Origin: Clostridiales bacterium
GTDB taxonomy: Bacteria; Bacillota; Clostridia; Lachnospirales; Lachnospiraceae
Assembly: GCA_012839295.1 (NCBI GenBank)
Contig: DUNO01000009.1
Location: 124,001-188,000 of the forward strand
Reading direction: 5' to 3'
DNA: 64,000 nt
The translations under genes and the position numbers were made by a program. Every line of letters begins with the position of its first letter. Position 1 is the stretch's first letter. Below, in pieces: positions 14,271-58,963 of the stretch. The notes beneath the pieces are model-generated. The model did no database searches. It saw only the letters and a program-made list of their open reading frames with translations, and was not told the DNA's origin.

Positions 14271-14431
14271 ATATAAGTTATGAGAAGTTGTACTTTAACT
14301 TCTCATAAAAGGTGCGGTCTTTTCGCACCGTGCATCGCGATTATTGAATCATGGTTTTGATTCAATAATATAAGTTATGAGAAGTTGTACTTTAACTTCT
14401 CATAAAAGGTGCGGTCTTTTCGCACCGTGCA
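14271..14431. repeat. Two identical 64-base palindromic repeats around a third palindrome
   Basis: Copies at 14271-14334 and 14368-14431 are identical over 64 bases (offset 97). Each holds a 12-bp hairpin TTATGAGAAGTT/AACTTCTCATAA (14278-14289 with 14297-14308 in copy one) and a 6-bp hairpin GGTGCG/CGCACC (14311-14316 with 14324-14329). The spacer contains another perfect 12-bp hairpin, ATTATTGAATCA (14340-14351) with its complement (14358-14369). A bare palindrome GGTGCGCACC follows at 14445-14454, equal to the short arms joined without a loop. TAGGAAG/CTTCCTA at 14460-14482 forms a last hairpin. No gene is present between 14242 and 14652. Confidence 0.9.
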
Positions 14432-15496: not shown

Positions 15497-15514
15497 AGAG
15501 ATATGATCGGATGA

Positions 15515-15756
15515 AGAATCTGGGAGAGACCTCACCAGTGTGCTGACCCTTGATACCCAGGAGGGCAGGACACCGAACAGAAGGAGGCGCCGAAGGGGAA
15601 TGCGGAAACTCTCAGGCAAAAGGACCAGGTTTGGACGATACTCTGGAAAGCGATTTGTCACCGAAGAAGCAATTCCTTGGAGCTGCTAAAGCATCAGGGG
15701 AGAATCTTTCAGGTAAACATACAGAGGCGTATTGATTTTTTCAGTACGTCTTTTTT
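15515..15756 (+). ncRNA. Tandem glycine riboswitch with overlapping terminator
   Basis: Two glycine aptamers lie in series. The first (about 15515-15630) shows GGGAGAGACCTCACC, GCGCCGAAGGGG and CTCTCAGGCAAAAGGACC. The second (about 15637-15727) shows CTCTGGAAAG, CACCGAAGAAGCAA and TCTTTCAGGTAAAC, closed by CTCTG (15641-15645) with CAGAG (15722-15726). Downstream, AGAGGCGTA (15723-15731) can pair with TACGTCTTT (15745-15753) and is followed by T to 15756, giving an intrinsic terminator. The AGAG shared by aptamer helix P1 and terminator makes them exclusive, so bound glycine should block termination and turn the operon on, as known for gcvT riboswitches in Bacillus. Confidence 0.92.
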
Positions 15757-17498: not shown

Positions 17499-18830
17499 AT
17501 GGGAACCTATGTACCAAATACCAGGGAGGAGCAGCAGGAGATGCTAAGAGAGATCGGCGTCCATGACCTGCAGGAGCTGTTTCATGCAATTCCAAGGGAG
17601 GTCTGCCTGGATGGACCCTTAAAGCTTCCCTCTGGCCTGCCTGAGCTGTCCGTGTATCGGAAAATGTCCGGGCTTGCCGGGAGGAATAAAGTGTTTCAGA
17701 GTATTTTCCGGGGAGCAGGGGCTTACCGCCACTACATTCCCTCCATTGTAAAGCAGATTACCTCCAAGGAGGAGTTTGTGACGGCTTATACCCCCTATCA
17801 GGCGGAGATCAGCCAGGGAATTTTGCAATCTATTTTTGAATATCAGACGATGATCTGTGAACTGACGGGGATGGATGTATCGAATGCTTCTGTCTATGAT
17901 GGTGCGACTGCGGCAGCGGAAGCAGTGATTATGTGCAAGGAGAGAAAGAGGACGAAGGCACTCGTATCAGAAACTGTCCACCCGGAGACGATCCAAACAA
18001 TCCAGACCTACTGCAGCGGAACGGATATGGAAGTAATCCTTGTTCCGGCGAAGGAAGGGCATACGGATATGGAGGCGCTGCAGCAGTTATTGGATGAGGA
18101 AACCGCCTCTGTCCTCCTACAACAGCCCAATTATTACGGAATTTTAGAGGATGCGGAACCTGCCGGCATCCTGACCCATGAAAAGGATGCAAAATTTATA
18201 ATGGCCTGTAACCCCATATCTTTAGGGCTCCTAAAGGCTCCCTCCGAGTATGGTGCGGATATTGCCGTGGGAGAAGGACAGCCACTGGGCATACCACTGT
18301 CCTACGGCGGACCCTACCTGGGCTTTATGGCATCCACGGAGAAGCTGATGCGAAGGCTACCGGGACGTATTGTGGGCGAGACAAAGGACACCAGGGGAGA
18401 GAGGGCGTTTGTACTGACCTTGCAGGCAAGGGAGCAGCATATTCGCCGGGAAAAGGCTTCCAGTAACATATGCTCCAACCAGGCTCTTTGTGCAATGACG
18501 GCAGCAGTATACCTGGATGCAATGGGGGCACGGGGCTTAAGGCAGGCGGCGGAAAGCTCCATGTCAAAGGCCCACTATCTTGCGGGAGAGCTTTGCAAGC
18601 TTCCGGGCTTTGCATTGGTTTATCCCGGTGAGTTCTTCCACGAATTCGTGACTACCTGTAGGGGAAATGTGGATAAGGTGTTAAGAGCCTTGGAGGACCG
18701 TGGAATTCTTGGCGGATATCCTCTATCCGGGAAGGATGCGGGGCATCTGCTCTGGTGCGCTACGGAAATGAATACGAAGGAAGAGATGGATACCCTGGTC
18801 AGTATCTTGGAAGAGGTAACAAGAGCTTGA
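17499..18830 (+). CDS. gcvPA: Glycine dehydrogenase (decarboxylating) subunit 1
   Basis: The 443-residue N-terminal half of P protein. It opens YVPNTREEQQEMLREIG and shows the family segments YTPYQAEISQG, ASVYDGATAAAEA and the glycine-rich PLSYGGPYLG. With GcvPB it forms the PLP enzyme that decarboxylates glycine and loads the aminomethyl group onto GcvH. This subunit lacks the PLP lysine, as expected. A GGAGG sits ahead of the ATG. It is followed not by gcvPB directly but by an inserted repeat of about 80 bases. Confidence 0.96.
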   Translation: MGTYVPNTREEQQEMLREIGVHDLQELFHAIPREVCLDGPLKLPSGLPELSVYRKMSGLAGRNKVFQSIFRGAGAYRHYIPSIVKQITSKEEFVTAYTPYQAEISQGILQSIFEYQTMICELTGMDVSNASVYDGATAAAEAVIMCKERKRTKALVSETVHPETIQTIQTYCSGTDMEVILVPAKEGHTDMEALQQLLDEETASVLLQQPNYYGILEDAEPAGILTHEKDAKFIMACNPISLGLLKAPSEYGADIAVGEGQPLGIPLSYGGPYLGFMASTEKLMRRLPGRIVGETKDTRGERAFVLTLQAREQHIRREKASSNICSNQALCAMTAAVYLDAMGARGLRQAAESSMSKAHYLAGELCKLPGFALVYPGEFFHEFVTTCRGNVDKVLRALEDRGILGGYPLSGKDAGHLLWCATEMNTKEEMDTLVSILEEVTRA

Positions 18831-18852
18831 GAGAAATGTCAAAAATAGATGA

Positions 18853-18935
18853 GAGGGGGACCGGATCCATGCTGGCACTTTCATGGCGATTTGTGCAGGA
18901 TAGGGGCAATACCCGAAGTGACGGGCATGGACATG
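18853..18935 (+). repeat. Repeat element, copy A, between gcvPA and gcvPB
   Basis: This stretch matches 43540-43600 in the core CCGGRTCCATGCYGGCAC, then TTTYATGGC and TTTGTG, and in the 3' end GGCATGGACAT. Both copies can form a helix between TCCATGC and GCATGGA (18866-18872 with 18925-18931 here). In one frame the two copies encode nearly the same peptide, HAGTFMA (see the findings). Here that frame has a TGA at 18850-18852 and no start codon, so copy A looks like a remnant. It ends exactly at the start region of gcvPB. Confidence 0.7.
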
Positions 18936-18938
18936 AGC

Positions 18939-20372
18939 ATGAAATTAATTTTTGAAAAAAGTATAGCAGGAAGAGGCTGTGACCTTCTCCCGGAATGCGA
19001 TGTTCCCGTCGCAGCCGTAGGGAATAAATTTATCAGAAACAGTGAAATCCATCTCCCGGAGGTTTCCGAAACGGAGCTTAGCAGGCATTATACAGAGCTG
19101 ATGAAGCGGACCTTTGGTGTAAATGACGGCTTCTATCCCTTGGGCTCCTGTACGATGAAATATAACCCGAAGGTGAATGATGAGGTAGCAGGGCTCCCTG
19201 GCTTTGCGGAAATTCATCCTTTGCAGCCCGTCGGAACGGTCCAGGGCTGCCTGGAGGTAATGAAACTGGCGGAGGAGTATCTATGCGAGATTACAGGCAT
19301 GGAGGCCATGGATTTCCAACCGGCGGCGGGAGCACACGGGGAATTCACCGGATTAAAATTAATTGCGGCATATCATAAAGAACGCAAGGATACTAAAAGG
19401 ACGAAGATTATTGTCCCTGATTCAGCGCATGGGACGAATCCGGCAAGTGCTGCAATGTCAGGATTTTCGGTAGTTAATGTGGCCTCCACCAAGGAAGGGT
19501 ATGTAGACCCGGAGGAATTAAGGAAGGTGGTTGGGGAGGATACGGCCGGCTTTATGCTGACGAATCCCAATACCGTAGGGATGTTTGATGAGAATATCCT
19601 GGAGCTTACCAAGATCATCCATGACGCCGGCGGCTTAAATTACTATGACGGTGCTAATTTAAATGCCATCATGGGCTTGGTGCGCCCGGGTGATATGGGC
19701 TTTGACGTGGTCCACCTGAACCTGCATAAGACCTTTTCGACTCCCCATGGAGGCGGCGGACCTGGAAGCGGGCCTGTGGGCTGCAAGGAAAGGCTGGTCA
19801 GATACCTGCCAACACCAAGGATTATTTTAAAGGACGGACGGTATGAATTTGCAGAGAAGCCCCTAGAAAGTATTGGCCGGGTAAAAGCCTTTTATGGGAA
19901 CTTCCGGGTAGTTGTACGTGCATTGGCCTATATCCTTACCTTAGGAGGGGAAGGATTAAGGAATGCGTCAGAAAATGCGGTATTGAATGCAAACTATATG
20001 ATGCAGAAGCTCCAGGGGATTTTTGATATGCCATTCTCAGGGCATTGCATGCATGAATTTGTCATATCCCTTGAGCAGCTGAAGCAGGAGAAGGGGGTTA
20101 GCGCCCTGGATTTTGCAAAAACCCTGCTGGATTATGGCATGCATCCGCCGACAATGTATTTCCCCTTAATTGTCCATGAAGCGCTGATGGTGGAACCGAC
20201 GGAGACAGAGACGAAGGAAAACTTAGAGCTTGCAGTTGAAGTATATAAAGCGGTATTGGAACAGGCAAGGAAGGAGCCGGAGATGCTTCACCAGTCGCCT
20301 GCCAAGACGGTAATCGGGCGCCCGGATGAGGTTATGGCAGCAAGGAATCCGGTATTACGTTATCAATTTTGA
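18939..20372 (+). CDS. gcvPB: Glycine dehydrogenase (decarboxylating) subunit 2
   Basis: The 477-residue catalytic half of P protein, starting MKLIFEKSIAGRGCDLLPEC as in its relatives. The PLP lysine is K264 in LNLHKTFSTPHGGGG; LGSCTMKYNPK and AAGAHGEFTGL are also diagnostic. The frame stays open upstream to ATG 18849, but those 30 codons lie in the inserted repeat and do not match the family. ATG 18927 (MDMSMKL) is a second option. None of the three has a clear Shine-Dalgarno, so translation may depend on coupling with gcvPA or on the repeat. It is followed after 22 bases by lplA. Confidence 0.94.
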   Translation: MKLIFEKSIAGRGCDLLPECDVPVAAVGNKFIRNSEIHLPEVSETELSRHYTELMKRTFGVNDGFYPLGSCTMKYNPKVNDEVAGLPGFAEIHPLQPVGTVQGCLEVMKLAEEYLCEITGMEAMDFQPAAGAHGEFTGLKLIAAYHKERKDTKRTKIIVPDSAHGTNPASAAMSGFSVVNVASTKEGYVDPEELRKVVGEDTAGFMLTNPNTVGMFDENILELTKIIHDAGGLNYYDGANLNAIMGLVRPGDMGFDVVHLNLHKTFSTPHGGGGPGSGPVGCKERLVRYLPTPRIILKDGRYEFAEKPLESIGRVKAFYGNFRVVVRALAYILTLGGEGLRNASENAVLNANYMMQKLQGIFDMPFSGHCMHEFVISLEQLKQEKGVSALDFAKTLLDYGMHPPTMYFPLIVHEALMVEPTETETKENLELAVEVYKAVLEQARKEPEMLHQSPAKTVIGRPDEVMAARNPVLRYQF

Positions 20373-43483: not shown

Positions 43484-43600
43484 ATGTCTGGGAGAAAGCT
43501 AAGGAATAAGGTTGAAAGAAATAAAGCAGATAAACGAAGGGAGGGCCGGGTCCATGCCGGCACTTTTATGGCATTTTGTGAGGTAAAGGCATGGACATAA
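43484..43600 (+). CDS. Possible 38-residue protein overlapping the HD gene start; repeat copy B
   Basis: ATG 43484, just after AAGGGA, opens a frame encoding MSGRKLRNKVERNKADKR and ending RVHAGTFMAFCEVKAWT. The last third matches copy A at 18853-18935: in this frame, three of the differences between the copies are third-position synonymous changes and one is Val/Ile, while the other two frames show mostly amino-acid changes. That supports this frame as the coding one. The DNA also forms a 9-bp helix GTCCATGCC (43550-43558) with GGCATGGAC (43588-43596), which covers the ATG of the next gene. Confidence 0.5.
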   Translation: MSGRKLRNKVERNKADKRREGRVHAGTFMAFCEVKAWT

Positions 43601-44238
43601 TTATGGAAATAGGATCTGAATTATTTAATACCATAACAGAATACCTGACGTTTAATGAAAAGCCTTCTGATGACCTAAACCAGTTATTTGATTCAGAGGC
43701 TTTCAAGCAATGGCCTTTTTCCATGCTAAGGAGGCTGAAGGAGACAAAGCAATCAAAAATCCACCATCCTGAGGGTGATGTCTGGAACCATACCATGCTG
43801 GTATTGGATGAAGCCGCGGCAGTGAGAAAAGACAGCAGTGATCCAAGGGCATTTATGTGGGCTGCCTTGCTGCATGATATAGGGAAGCCGGATACCACCA
43901 GAATAAAAGGAGAAAAGATAACTGCCTACAATCACGATAATGTTGGGGCGGATTTATCAAAAGAATTTTTGGAGGCGGTTACCTCTGAACAGGATTTCAT
44001 CGAAAGGGTATACCTGCTGGTTAAATATCACATGCATATGCTGTATATTTTGAAGAATCTTCCTTTTAGTGATAAGAAGGGATTGATTTCAAGCGTTGAC
44101 ATTAAGGATATAGCCTTATTGGGGCTATGTGACCGGTTAGGCCGGAAGGCGGTTAACCGTGATGAGGTCACGGAGGAATACCGGAGATTTTATTCCTTGC
44201 TGGAAACTATGGGAAAAAAATATGGAAATAAGGTGTAA
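43591..44238 (+). CDS. HD-domain (HDIG) phosphohydrolase
   Basis: A 215-residue protein with one HD domain: histidine in DVWNHTMLVLDEA, the HD pair in ALLHDIGKPDTT, and a further histidine in YNHDNVGADLS. These are the metal ligands expected of a phosphohydrolase; the layout resembles the HD part of tRNA nucleotidyltransferases without the transferase. ATG 43591 (MDIIMEIG) has GAGGT seven bases upstream but lies inside a potential hairpin; ATG 43603 is a second start. It is the last gene of the small-gene run. Confidence 0.88.
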   Translation: MDIIMEIGSELFNTITEYLTFNEKPSDDLNQLFDSEAFKQWPFSMLRRLKETKQSKIHHPEGDVWNHTMLVLDEAAAVRKDSSDPRAFMWAALLHDIGKPDTTRIKGEKITAYNHDNVGADLSKEFLEAVTSEQDFIERVYLLVKYHMHMLYILKNLPFSDKKGLISSVDIKDIALLGLCDRLGRKAVNRDEVTEEYRRFYSLLETMGKKYGNKV

Positions 44239-57751: not shown

Positions 57752-58963
57752 ATGGCGAAACGAACAAAAAAATTGACGTCCCAAGGGGATGAAAAGGATG
57801 AAATCAGAATAAATAAATTCCTAAGTGATGCGGGAATTTGCTCCAGGCGGGAAGCGGATCGCTATATTACGGAGGGCAAGGTTAAGATAGACGGCGAGAT
57901 TGCACAGATGGGCTCCAAGGTAACAAAGGACAGTGTGGTTACCTTTTTGGATCAGCCGGTCAGGAAGGAAGAGAAGCTGGTCCTGATTGCATTTAATAAG
58001 CCGGAGGGGATTGTATGTACTACGGATCAAAGAGAGCCGGACAACATCATCGATTTTATCAACTATGGCATGCGTATCTATCCGGTCGGGAGGTTGGATA
58101 AGGATTCGGAGGGCCTGATTTTACTGACAAATGACGGAGATATTGTAAATAAAATTTTACGTGCGGAGCACCAGCATGAGAAGGAATACATTGTTCACGT
58201 AAATAAGGAAATTACAGCGGATTTTATTCAGGAGATGTCTGCTGGGGTACCAATCCTTGATACGGTTACGAACCCGTGTAAGGTGACACAATTGGACAAG
58301 TATACCTTTAATATTATCCTTACCCAGGGATTAAACAGGCAGATCAGGCGTATGTGTGAATATTTAGGATACCGGGTAGTGGGCTTGACCAGAATCCGTA
58401 TTATGAATATCCAGCTGGGAAGGCTTAAGGTAGGGGATTACCGCAATGTAACAGAAAAAGAGATTGAAGAGCTGAATCAGGCATTTGAGCAGCAGAAGGA
58501 AAAAAAGGCAGAGAAGGGAACCGAGGCAAAAAGAGAACAGGGCAGAAGAGAGCCAGGTAAGAAGGAACAGGGCAGGAGAGAGCCAGGTAAGAAGGAACAG
58601 GGCAGGAGAGAGCCAGGTAAGAAGGAACAGGGCAGGAGAGAGCCAGGTAAGAAGGAACAGGACAGGGGAGAGCCAGGTAAGAAGGAACAGGACAGAAGAG
58701 AACAAGGGAAAAGTGGAGCCGAAAAGATAAGTGTAAGCTCATTAGGTAAAAGGGATAGGAGTAATCCGCCCAAGGTGATGCATAGCGCGCTGCCAAAAGA
58801 GCACAATGATAGAAGAAATTCTAGGCCTACCGGGAAAAAAAGCGGAGCGGATAAGTTTTCAGACCATGAGAAATTTTCAAATAGTGAAAATAGAAGAACC
58901 CCGGGCAAATATTCAGATAAAGGGAAAAGAAGCCCAGGCAGCAAGAAAGCAAAATTCAGGTAA
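57752..58963 (+). CDS. Pseudouridine synthase (RluF/RluB type) with repeat tail
   Basis: A 403-residue protein. An S4 RNA-binding domain (about 15-75, RINKFLSDAGICSRREADR) is followed by an RsuA-type catalytic domain with D116 in PVGRLDKDSEGL, then QGLNRQIRRMCEYLGYRV. These convert uridine to pseudouridine in 23S rRNA. From about residue 245 a highly basic tail begins: five to six copies of a decapeptide RREPGKKEQG and then a Lys/Arg/Ser/Gly stretch to the end. Family members are about 240 residues, so the tail is an addition. It lies 21 bases before ligA. Confidence 0.92.
   Translation: MAKRTKKLTSQGDEKDEIRINKFLSDAGICSRREADRYITEGKVKIDGEIAQMGSKVTKDSVVTFLDQPVRKEEKLVLIAFNKPEGIVCTTDQREPDNIIDFINYGMRIYPVGRLDKDSEGLILLTNDGDIVNKILRAEHQHEKEYIVHVNKEITADFIQEMSAGVPILDTVTNPCKVTQLDKYTFNIILTQGLNRQIRRMCEYLGYRVVGLTRIRIMNIQLGRLKVGDYRNVTEKEIEELNQAFEQQKEKKAEKGTEAKREQGRREPGKKEQGRREPGKKEQGRREPGKKEQGRREPGKKEQDRGEPGKKEQDRREQGKSGAEKISVSSLGKRDRSNPPKVMHSALPKEHNDRRNSRPTGKKSGADKFSDHEKFSNSENRRTPGKYSDKGKRSPGSKKAKFR
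58531..58710 (+). repeat. 30-base in-frame tandem repeat in the pseudouridine synthase tail
   Basis: Six units (starting at 58531, 58561, 58591, 58621, 58651 and 58681), several identical, each encoding ten residues. The consensus starts GAAGGAACAGGGCAGGAGAG and ends AGCCAGGTAA. Confidence 0.92.

Follow-up and report, generated by a model that had tools for sequence, protein, structure and literature searches.

The genome studied here contains a real, lineage-specific family of short repeats inserted next to start codons, and the reading preferred for it, with a probability of roughly 0.7, is that the repeat is a mobile element which is placed exactly 4 nt before the start codons of genes and which preserves their translation through bridged or coupled initiation. 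The copy number of the repeat, its borders, the position of the ATG, the exact empty sites in a sister genome, its narrow distribution and the conserved pairing of its hairpin are direct observations. We infer that the copies have transposed, mobility of the element being very likely; a role in translation is likely judging from the sequence patterns, and would include the restoration of translation at the genes concerned, by whichever of two routes dominates.

The window is a stretch of 64,000 nt from a host genome of 6.36 Mb (82 contigs, 97.9% complete), and it contains two copies of the repeat, A and B. A preliminary description of this DNA quoted motifs common to the two copies, which are found in the sequence where it placed them; one 13-nt string, TCCATGCYGGCAC, occurs without mismatch at just these two sites in the window. 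The translations that it gave for one frame, RIHAGTFMAIC and RVHAGTFMAFC, are correct, and the 3' ends of both copies do lie at gene starts, those of gcvPB and of a gene for an HD-domain protein. The two similar stretches are real, but they were drawn too short, since the conserved sequence starts about 30 nt further upstream, so that copy A occupies approximately 18823-18934 and copy B approximately 43508-43598. The features of the copies, with the evidence for each in brackets, are as follows.

18823..18934, + strand: copy A, long form, about 112 nt (covariance-model match G000:C7:142821-142941, E 4.8e-12)
18827..18830, + strand: TTGA at the left end of copy A, with TTG at the family's NTG position and TGA as the gcvPA stop
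18854..18859, + strand: element-borne SD-like AGGGGG of copy A (sequence)
18866..18873, + strand: P1 stem of copy A, 5' strand, TCCATGCT (covariation over 93 copies; single-sequence fold)
18875..18896, + strand: P2 hairpin GCAC...GTGC of copy A (sequence; pairing over 93 copies)
18924..18931, + strand: P1 stem of copy A, 3' strand, GGCATGGA (sequence; covariation)
18939..18941, + strand: gcvPB start codon, exactly 4 nt past GGACAT (sequence, Pfam, sister junction)
43508..43598, + strand: copy B, short form, 91 nt, preceding the HD-domain gene (covariance-model match G000:C7:167506-167605, E 9.2e-26)
43512..43514, + strand: TTG at the left end of copy B, the start of the element's short open frame
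43539..43544, + strand: element-borne SD (GGGAGG) of copy B
43550..43558, + strand: P1 stem of copy B, 5' strand, GTCCATGCC (sequence; fold; covariation)
43588..43596, + strand: P1 stem of copy B, 3' strand, GGCATGGAC (sequence; fold; covariation)
43603..43605, + strand: start codon of the HD-domain gene, 4 nt past GGACAT (sequence, Pfam)

Copy A is flanked by the native Shine-Dalgarno sequence (SD) of gcvPB (GAGG, 18813-18816, in the end of gcvPA) and by the gcvPB start codon. Its own SD, AGGGGG, deviates from GGGAGG, and GAGC flanks its TTG..CAT part on both sides, in this copy alone, a pair that is read here as chance. Each gene has a second in-frame ATG, at 18933 for gcvPB and at 43591, inside P1, for the HD-domain gene. 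Pfam assigns the window genes to an HD-domain protein and to both halves of the P-protein of the glycine cleavage system. A tandem pair of glycine riboswitch aptamers is also present upstream of the latter genes, at 15511-15726 of the window.

The similarity between the copies is far beyond chance. The 22-nt core TCCATGCNGGCACTTTNATGGC was found with at most 3 mismatches in 51 places in the host genome, against 0 for the reversed control. Because the first alignment (A1) split the P1 stem of the short copies, models were built on near-gapless short copies (A2, A4); R1, a covariance model from 22 short copies, gave 91 places in the host genome at E<=0.1, and R2, a model of the hairpin only, gave 84 at E<=0.01. 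In brief the unit reads AAGG-TTGAAAGAAATAAAATTAAT.AACGAAGGGAGGACCGG, then the hairpin, then GGACAT, and has about 92 nt (short form) or about 112 nt (long form). Its left half is AAGG TTG AAAGAAATAAAATTAAT.AAC GAAGGGAGG ACCGG, followed by the hairpin half, GTCCATGCC. GCAC tttcatggcgattt GTGC ..(optional GGGCAATGCCCGTAATGAT units).. GGCATGGAC AT, and then by NNNN and ATG. In the printed loci it begins at AAGGTTGAAAG and terminates at GGACAT, and one locus (L044) contains three copies in head-to-tail tandem with joints at which GGACAT directly abuts AAGG, which fixes the borders of the element. Lengths and positions refer to 86 copies, namely the 91 covariance-model places minus L117, whose 3' end could not be placed, and L119, L122, L123 and L124, which consist of the leader alone, are truncated or match weakly; 40 of the 86 are 91-92 nt long and 14 are 112 nt long, the maximum is 179 nt, and some copies are decayed. 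The host thus has about 90 copies, and the proposal of a small mobile or duplicated element in the preliminary description is supported. No Rfam match lies over the element, either at gathering score in the window or at E<=1 in five loci, and a known RNA family was ruled out on these searches.

The comparison with the sister genome, G012, used as queries the starts of 71 genes behind copies and of two behind leader-only copies, pooled in two sets. These returned 60 sister loci, of which 46 were used together with gcvPB to give 47 pairs, some of them weak matches (e.g. L096, L029); paralogous or off-target matches and the two leader-only genes were not counted. The element is missing from 46 of the 47 sister loci (a script scored 45 as empty, and L112, which it flagged as occupied, is a chance match on reading), and one locus is occupied in both genomes (L043, equivalent to L083, with protein 90% identical). 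The left flank matches at 8 or more of 12 positions in 25 pairs, among which L016, L047, L048, L096, L105 and L121 are poor by eye. Twelve joins are exact (L001, L002, L008, L010, L015, L026, L027, L039, L090, L101, L102 and L104), and at these the host differs from the sister by a plain insertion, with no target duplication and no loss; ggaggt^aactATG, aggtggg^aactATG, ggaggacac^aaatATG and gaggtga^aattATG are sample joins in the sister. The two genes behind leader-only copies are without the leader in the sister too, and three of the 46 sister loci (L193, L196, L230) have there instead the end of a second repeat, F2, which is described below.

The same comparison bears out the claim that the repeat splits the glycine dehydrogenase genes. 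The gcvPB gene is present in 23 of the 34 genomes of the genus, the host included. In the sister, whose gcvPB is 90% identical, the end of gcvPA and the start of gcvPB share an ATGA, and a GGAGG lies within gcvPA. The junction is without the element in all 11 other genomes, the sister included, in which a motif located it, a count that covers 11 of the 22 other genomes with gcvPB. An overlapping junction has here been pulled apart by an insertion, with both reading frames left whole.

The placement of the element is narrowly defined. Counting from its 3' end, the triplet at +4 is ATG in 66 of the 86 copies, ATA in 5, ACG in 3 and some other triplet in 12; none of the other offsets between 0 and 19 has more than 4 copies with ATG. 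The 4-nt spacer is A-rich (A at the first base in 71/86 and at the second in 67/86). A strong SD 5-mer is present in the 14 nt to the left of the element in 31 of the 86 copies, compared to 13 and 6 in two upstream control windows, and absent there from the other 55. Among the first 53 copies printed, 47 have a same-orientation frame of at least 60 codons that starts within 60 nt; the six without one are L014, L017, L022, L035, L040 and one inner tandem copy. The genes behind the copies look unrelated: Pfam, applied to a few, identified the P-protein half, the HD domain, a family-28 glycosyltransferase (MurG-like), a tRNA-type deaminase and a PP-loop protein, and the remaining downstream genes were judged by eye only. 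Against the preferred reading stand the 20 of 86 copies without ATG at +4, the 55 of 86 without a strong SD 5-mer on the left and the six of 53 without such a frame, as do two of the landing sites. At L104 the copy precedes the native SD and is followed at +4 by ACG, and at L039 the copy lies 9 nt before the ATG, where the sister also has ATA at +4; these two landings suggest that the preference may be for sequence rather than strictly for a working start.

The preliminary description also proposed a TCCATGC/GCATGGA helix by the start codons, and covariation analysis upholds it. The alignment used (A6) comprises 93 matches from 90 chosen loci (84 in the host, 6 in the sister) and, being fitted to the structure, leans towards it. 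P1 (9 bp) and P2 (4 bp) together have 88.9% of their cells paired across the 93 copies, and P2 alone has 82.6%, with all 4 of its pairs changed on both sides. Two-sided changes occur in 9 of the 13 pairs, with 39 compensatory cells compared to 10.7 in shuffled alignments, none of 500 shuffles reaching as high; sliding the partner strand gives at most 19. A smaller unfitted set (A2), whose structure came from its own consensus, agrees, with 3 pairs and 6 cells against shuffled means of 1.0 and 1.1. The outermost G-C pair is frequently A-C (27/92), and at the 12 inner pairs G-U is found 61 times and A-C 30 times, which favours the sense RNA as what matters. The conservation may partly reflect recent descent of the copies rather than selection in place. 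Fold energy was dropped as a line of support, since the values for the window copies are unexceptional and not significant (z -1.05 and -1.27).

The mechanism proposed for the family of this Lachnospirales lineage is that the repeat would insert in gene orientation exactly 4 nt upstream of a start codon, typically with the native SD on its left and the ATG on its right. Through its left end, AAGG-TTGA, a TTG start would come to lie as far from the native SD as the old ATG had been, and an overlapping upstream gene could gain a TGA stop. A second SD (GGGAGG), carried in the body, would precede the 9-bp hairpin by about 6 nt, and about 6 nt more would separate the 3' foot of the hairpin from the ATG. 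The gene would then most likely be translated by one or both of two routes, bridging and coupling. In the former, the folded hairpin would bring the element's SD to an effective distance of about 11-13 nt from the ATG, creating a split ribosome-binding site; in the latter, ribosomes on the element's own frame of about 24 codons would finish near the ATG and restart there.

The pattern of signals in the copies is consistent with bridging in several respects. Of 85 copies, 81 have an SD-like hexamer ahead of P1, scored at 5 or more of 6 positions with G accepted in place of A. In the 64 of these 85 with a good SD and ATG at +4, the gap from SD to P1 is 6 nt in 48, and the linear distance from SD to ATG ranges from 56 to 146 nt. 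The hairpin itself varies between 45 and 136 nt in length, not by threes alone, with almost no change in the spacing to the two sides of P1, and closing P1 would be expected to leave an SD-ATG spacing of about 11-13 nt. The hairpin-less copies L119 and L123 have GGAGG 8 and 6 nt from the ATG, which is an ordinary ribosome-binding site, and this normal spacing, together with the constant spacing flanking P1, fits an SD bridged by the hairpin.

Coupling was evaluated in the 77 copies with both ends found. Bases 5-7 of the element are TTG in 50, CTG in 7, GTG in 5 and TTA in 11, so that NTG stands at the left end in 62/77 and the native SD there faces a start codon at the old spacing; the TGA within TTGA can in addition end an overlapping upstream gene, which is how gcvPA terminates. 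In 55 of the 77 the left-end codon shares its frame with the internal ATG. The short frame reaches its stop no more than 40 nt from the ATG of the gene in 46 of the 77, its end lying at -17 relative to the ATG in 17 copies, at -16 in 3, at -2 in 8 and at scattered positions in the others. Since many copies have a short frame that is interrupted or shifted, coupling cannot be a general or sole route.

An alternative put forward in the preliminary description, that the repeat is a mobile or duplicated coding element under selection for a small HAGTFMA peptide, is extremely improbable on the frame statistics, and the peptide was rejected. These were computed from 64 copies with hairpin lengths of 48, 49, 69 or 70 nt (53 copies with modal spacing for the leader), with expected values obtained by placing the same base changes randomly among like bases, uncorrected for shared descent. 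The core in the HAGTFMA frame does have an excess of synonymous changes (104 compared to 71.8 expected) and stops in only 2/64 copies, but this excess counts for less because the copies are paralogues and not independent. The concentration of changes at third positions that had been reported for the two copies disappears in the larger set, in which codon positions 1, 2 and 3 have 128, 109 and 136 changes; the leader has a deficit of synonymous changes in this frame (68 compared to 91.9), the consensus reads HASTFMA and is not preceded by a start codon, and the hairpin lengths, from 45 to 136 nt, do not differ by threes alone. If a short frame is translated, the TTG frame (consensus LKEIKLINEGGTGSMPALSWRFVR, then a stop) is more likely than the HAGTFMA frame; its synonymous changes number 113 in the leader, compared to 92.3 expected, and 125 in the core, compared to 121.2, with stops in 12/64 copies.

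The element is narrowly distributed. Within the genus, 2 of 34 genomes match, the host and the sister, the latter with 7 places by R1 and 6 by R2. Across 392 genomes of the order, matches at E<=1e-4 were obtained in the host and in one genome of another genus (G290), in a scan with strict filters and few candidates scored per genome which can miss weak copies. In G290 there is one clear, decayed copy, which has lost its SD, retains P1 and is not followed by a long gene; a further match there is doubtful. The exact core gave one match among genome contigs, on a Herbinix MAG contig, in a search from which the host's own records were possibly excluded, and none among viral contigs; a phage origin was ruled out on the latter result.

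Comparison of loci revealed the second repeat, F2, which reads AAGTTTGAAAGAAAGTCACTTTCAAAC..CCTATTCACTTTTTGAATAGG..GAAAGGCACGGGTRT, then NNNN-ATG, and which has both ends in common with the element reported here (F1) and a different interior. The F2 pattern occurs in 75 places in the host (G000), 37 in the sister (G012), 14 in G029, 6 in G021 and 0-3 in each of the others, compared to 0-2 per genome for the reversed control. The loci, with end GAAAGGCACGGGTRT, are L252, L266 and L279-L328 in the host and L257 in the sister. ATG stands at +4 in 50 of 52 F2 copies examined, a rule that is largely built in because the search pattern contained ATG. The 5' end was located in 21 of the 52, of which 19 have TTG after the first four bases and 7 have a strong SD on the left, compared to 2 for the control. 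Species in which F2 is scarce or absent have GAAAGGCAYNGGTRT-NNNN-ATG before a few genes (L239, L242, L244, L258, L264), conserved ones among them (e.g. L242, L258); these are either old insertions or a native start-region motif.

The constant distance to the ATG, the covarying helix and the same-orientation open frame within 60 nt of 47/53 copies would also be expected of a cis-regulatory leader, a riboswitch-like or protein-binding RNA that has spread through a regulon of about 90 genes because it is useful. The genes behind the copies seem unrelated, however, the element is missing at 46/47 sister loci and from 32 of the 34 genomes of the genus, and five loci gave no Rfam match even at E<=1, so that a leader of this kind is an unlikely account of the family. 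A passive repeat of the MITE or REP type, which inserts anywhere and survives only as harmless copies at gene starts, is improbable to a similar degree. Small dispersed repeats are common and some copies here are decayed, but copies at harmless sites elsewhere should have survived too, yet ATG stands exactly at +4 in 66/86. F2, with a different interior, has the same placement (as found with a pattern that held ATG), and the ends are not inverted repeats and the exact joins lack duplications, all of which counts against a repeat of this type.

The preferred reading can be extended, tentatively and with rather less than even probability, to a class of mobile elements whose insertion machinery would recognise the regions where translation begins, an SD with its start codon, whether in the DNA or through the translated mRNA. 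The class would comprise at least two families with ends AAG[GT]TTGAAAGAAA ... GGCAYGGRYRT and the same +4 landing, each insertion would rebuild a structure-bridged or coupled ribosome-binding site, and in one species well over a hundred genes would have had their start regions remodelled. No transposase, circle or movement of the element was seen. The sole candidate enzyme searched for, the Y1 transposase (PF01797), has 0 matches in the host genome, and mobilisation of the Y1 (IS200/IS605) type was ruled out accordingly.

A description of the element was not found in the titles and abstract openings listed from open-licence literature, and it resembles several known systems in part. It is most likely similar in logic to the mycobacterial MIRUs, described as short, apparently mobile repeats that enter at start codons and whose short internal frame is coupled to the gene (PMC12548453). 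Insertion of a short repeat at start codons is found here as well (ATG at +4 in 66/86; empty sites), whereas the frame-end spacing of -4 nt given for MIRUs is not found in the element's TTG frame. A further difference is that the native SD and the ATG are here separated by a conserved 9-bp hairpin together with an internal SD. The element also belongs to another lineage, the two being compared by description. In phage T4, RNA structure between SD and AUG shortens the spacing, from 27 to 11 nt in gene 25 and from 22 to 5 nt in gene 38 (PMC3014915). A hairpin of the gene 25 type lies between SD and AUG here also, unexceptional in stability alone, and would shorten about 59 or 79 nt to about 11-13; the T4 cases, however, are single phage genes whose structure has been experimentally tested, while the present element is dispersed and its structure is predicted. 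The REP2 repeat terminates with a ribosome-binding site near start codons. In Neisseria meningitidis, REP2/CREN is a 150-bp element directly before a gene with a role in induction on host-cell contact (PMC9031163); it differs from the present element in length, sequence and host. MITEs and small interspersed repeats such as BOX, RUP and Correia are dispersed, lineage-bound and thought to be non-autonomous, and MITEs are described as carrying terminal inverted repeats and target duplications (PMC3049150). The present element has neither: its ends, AAGGTTGAAAG and GGCATGGACAT, are not complementary by eye, and no target-site duplication is present at the 12 exact joins.

The family amounts to a natural experiment with dozens of replicates, in which the own SD of a gene is now about 90-110 nt from its start codon. 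The genes that bear the element, some of them probably essential, must presumably still be translated, which makes testable both the efficiency of hairpin-bridged or coupled initiation in cells and the manner in which a mobile element finds start codons.

Other repeats were observed near the element and in the window. A third dispersed repeat (variants of TTCTTCCCA.TTATGTTTGTGCTGCCTACGGCAGCATG) abuts the left end of the element at L023, L030, L032, L047, L050, L051, L095 and L103. Identical 64-nt copies containing an inverted repeat lie at 14271-14334 and 14368-14431 of the window, and a stretch resembling the 14271-14334 repeat is found upstream of the element at L040. A repeat with a period of 30 nt, for which six overlapping register copies are listed, occupies 58505-58740.
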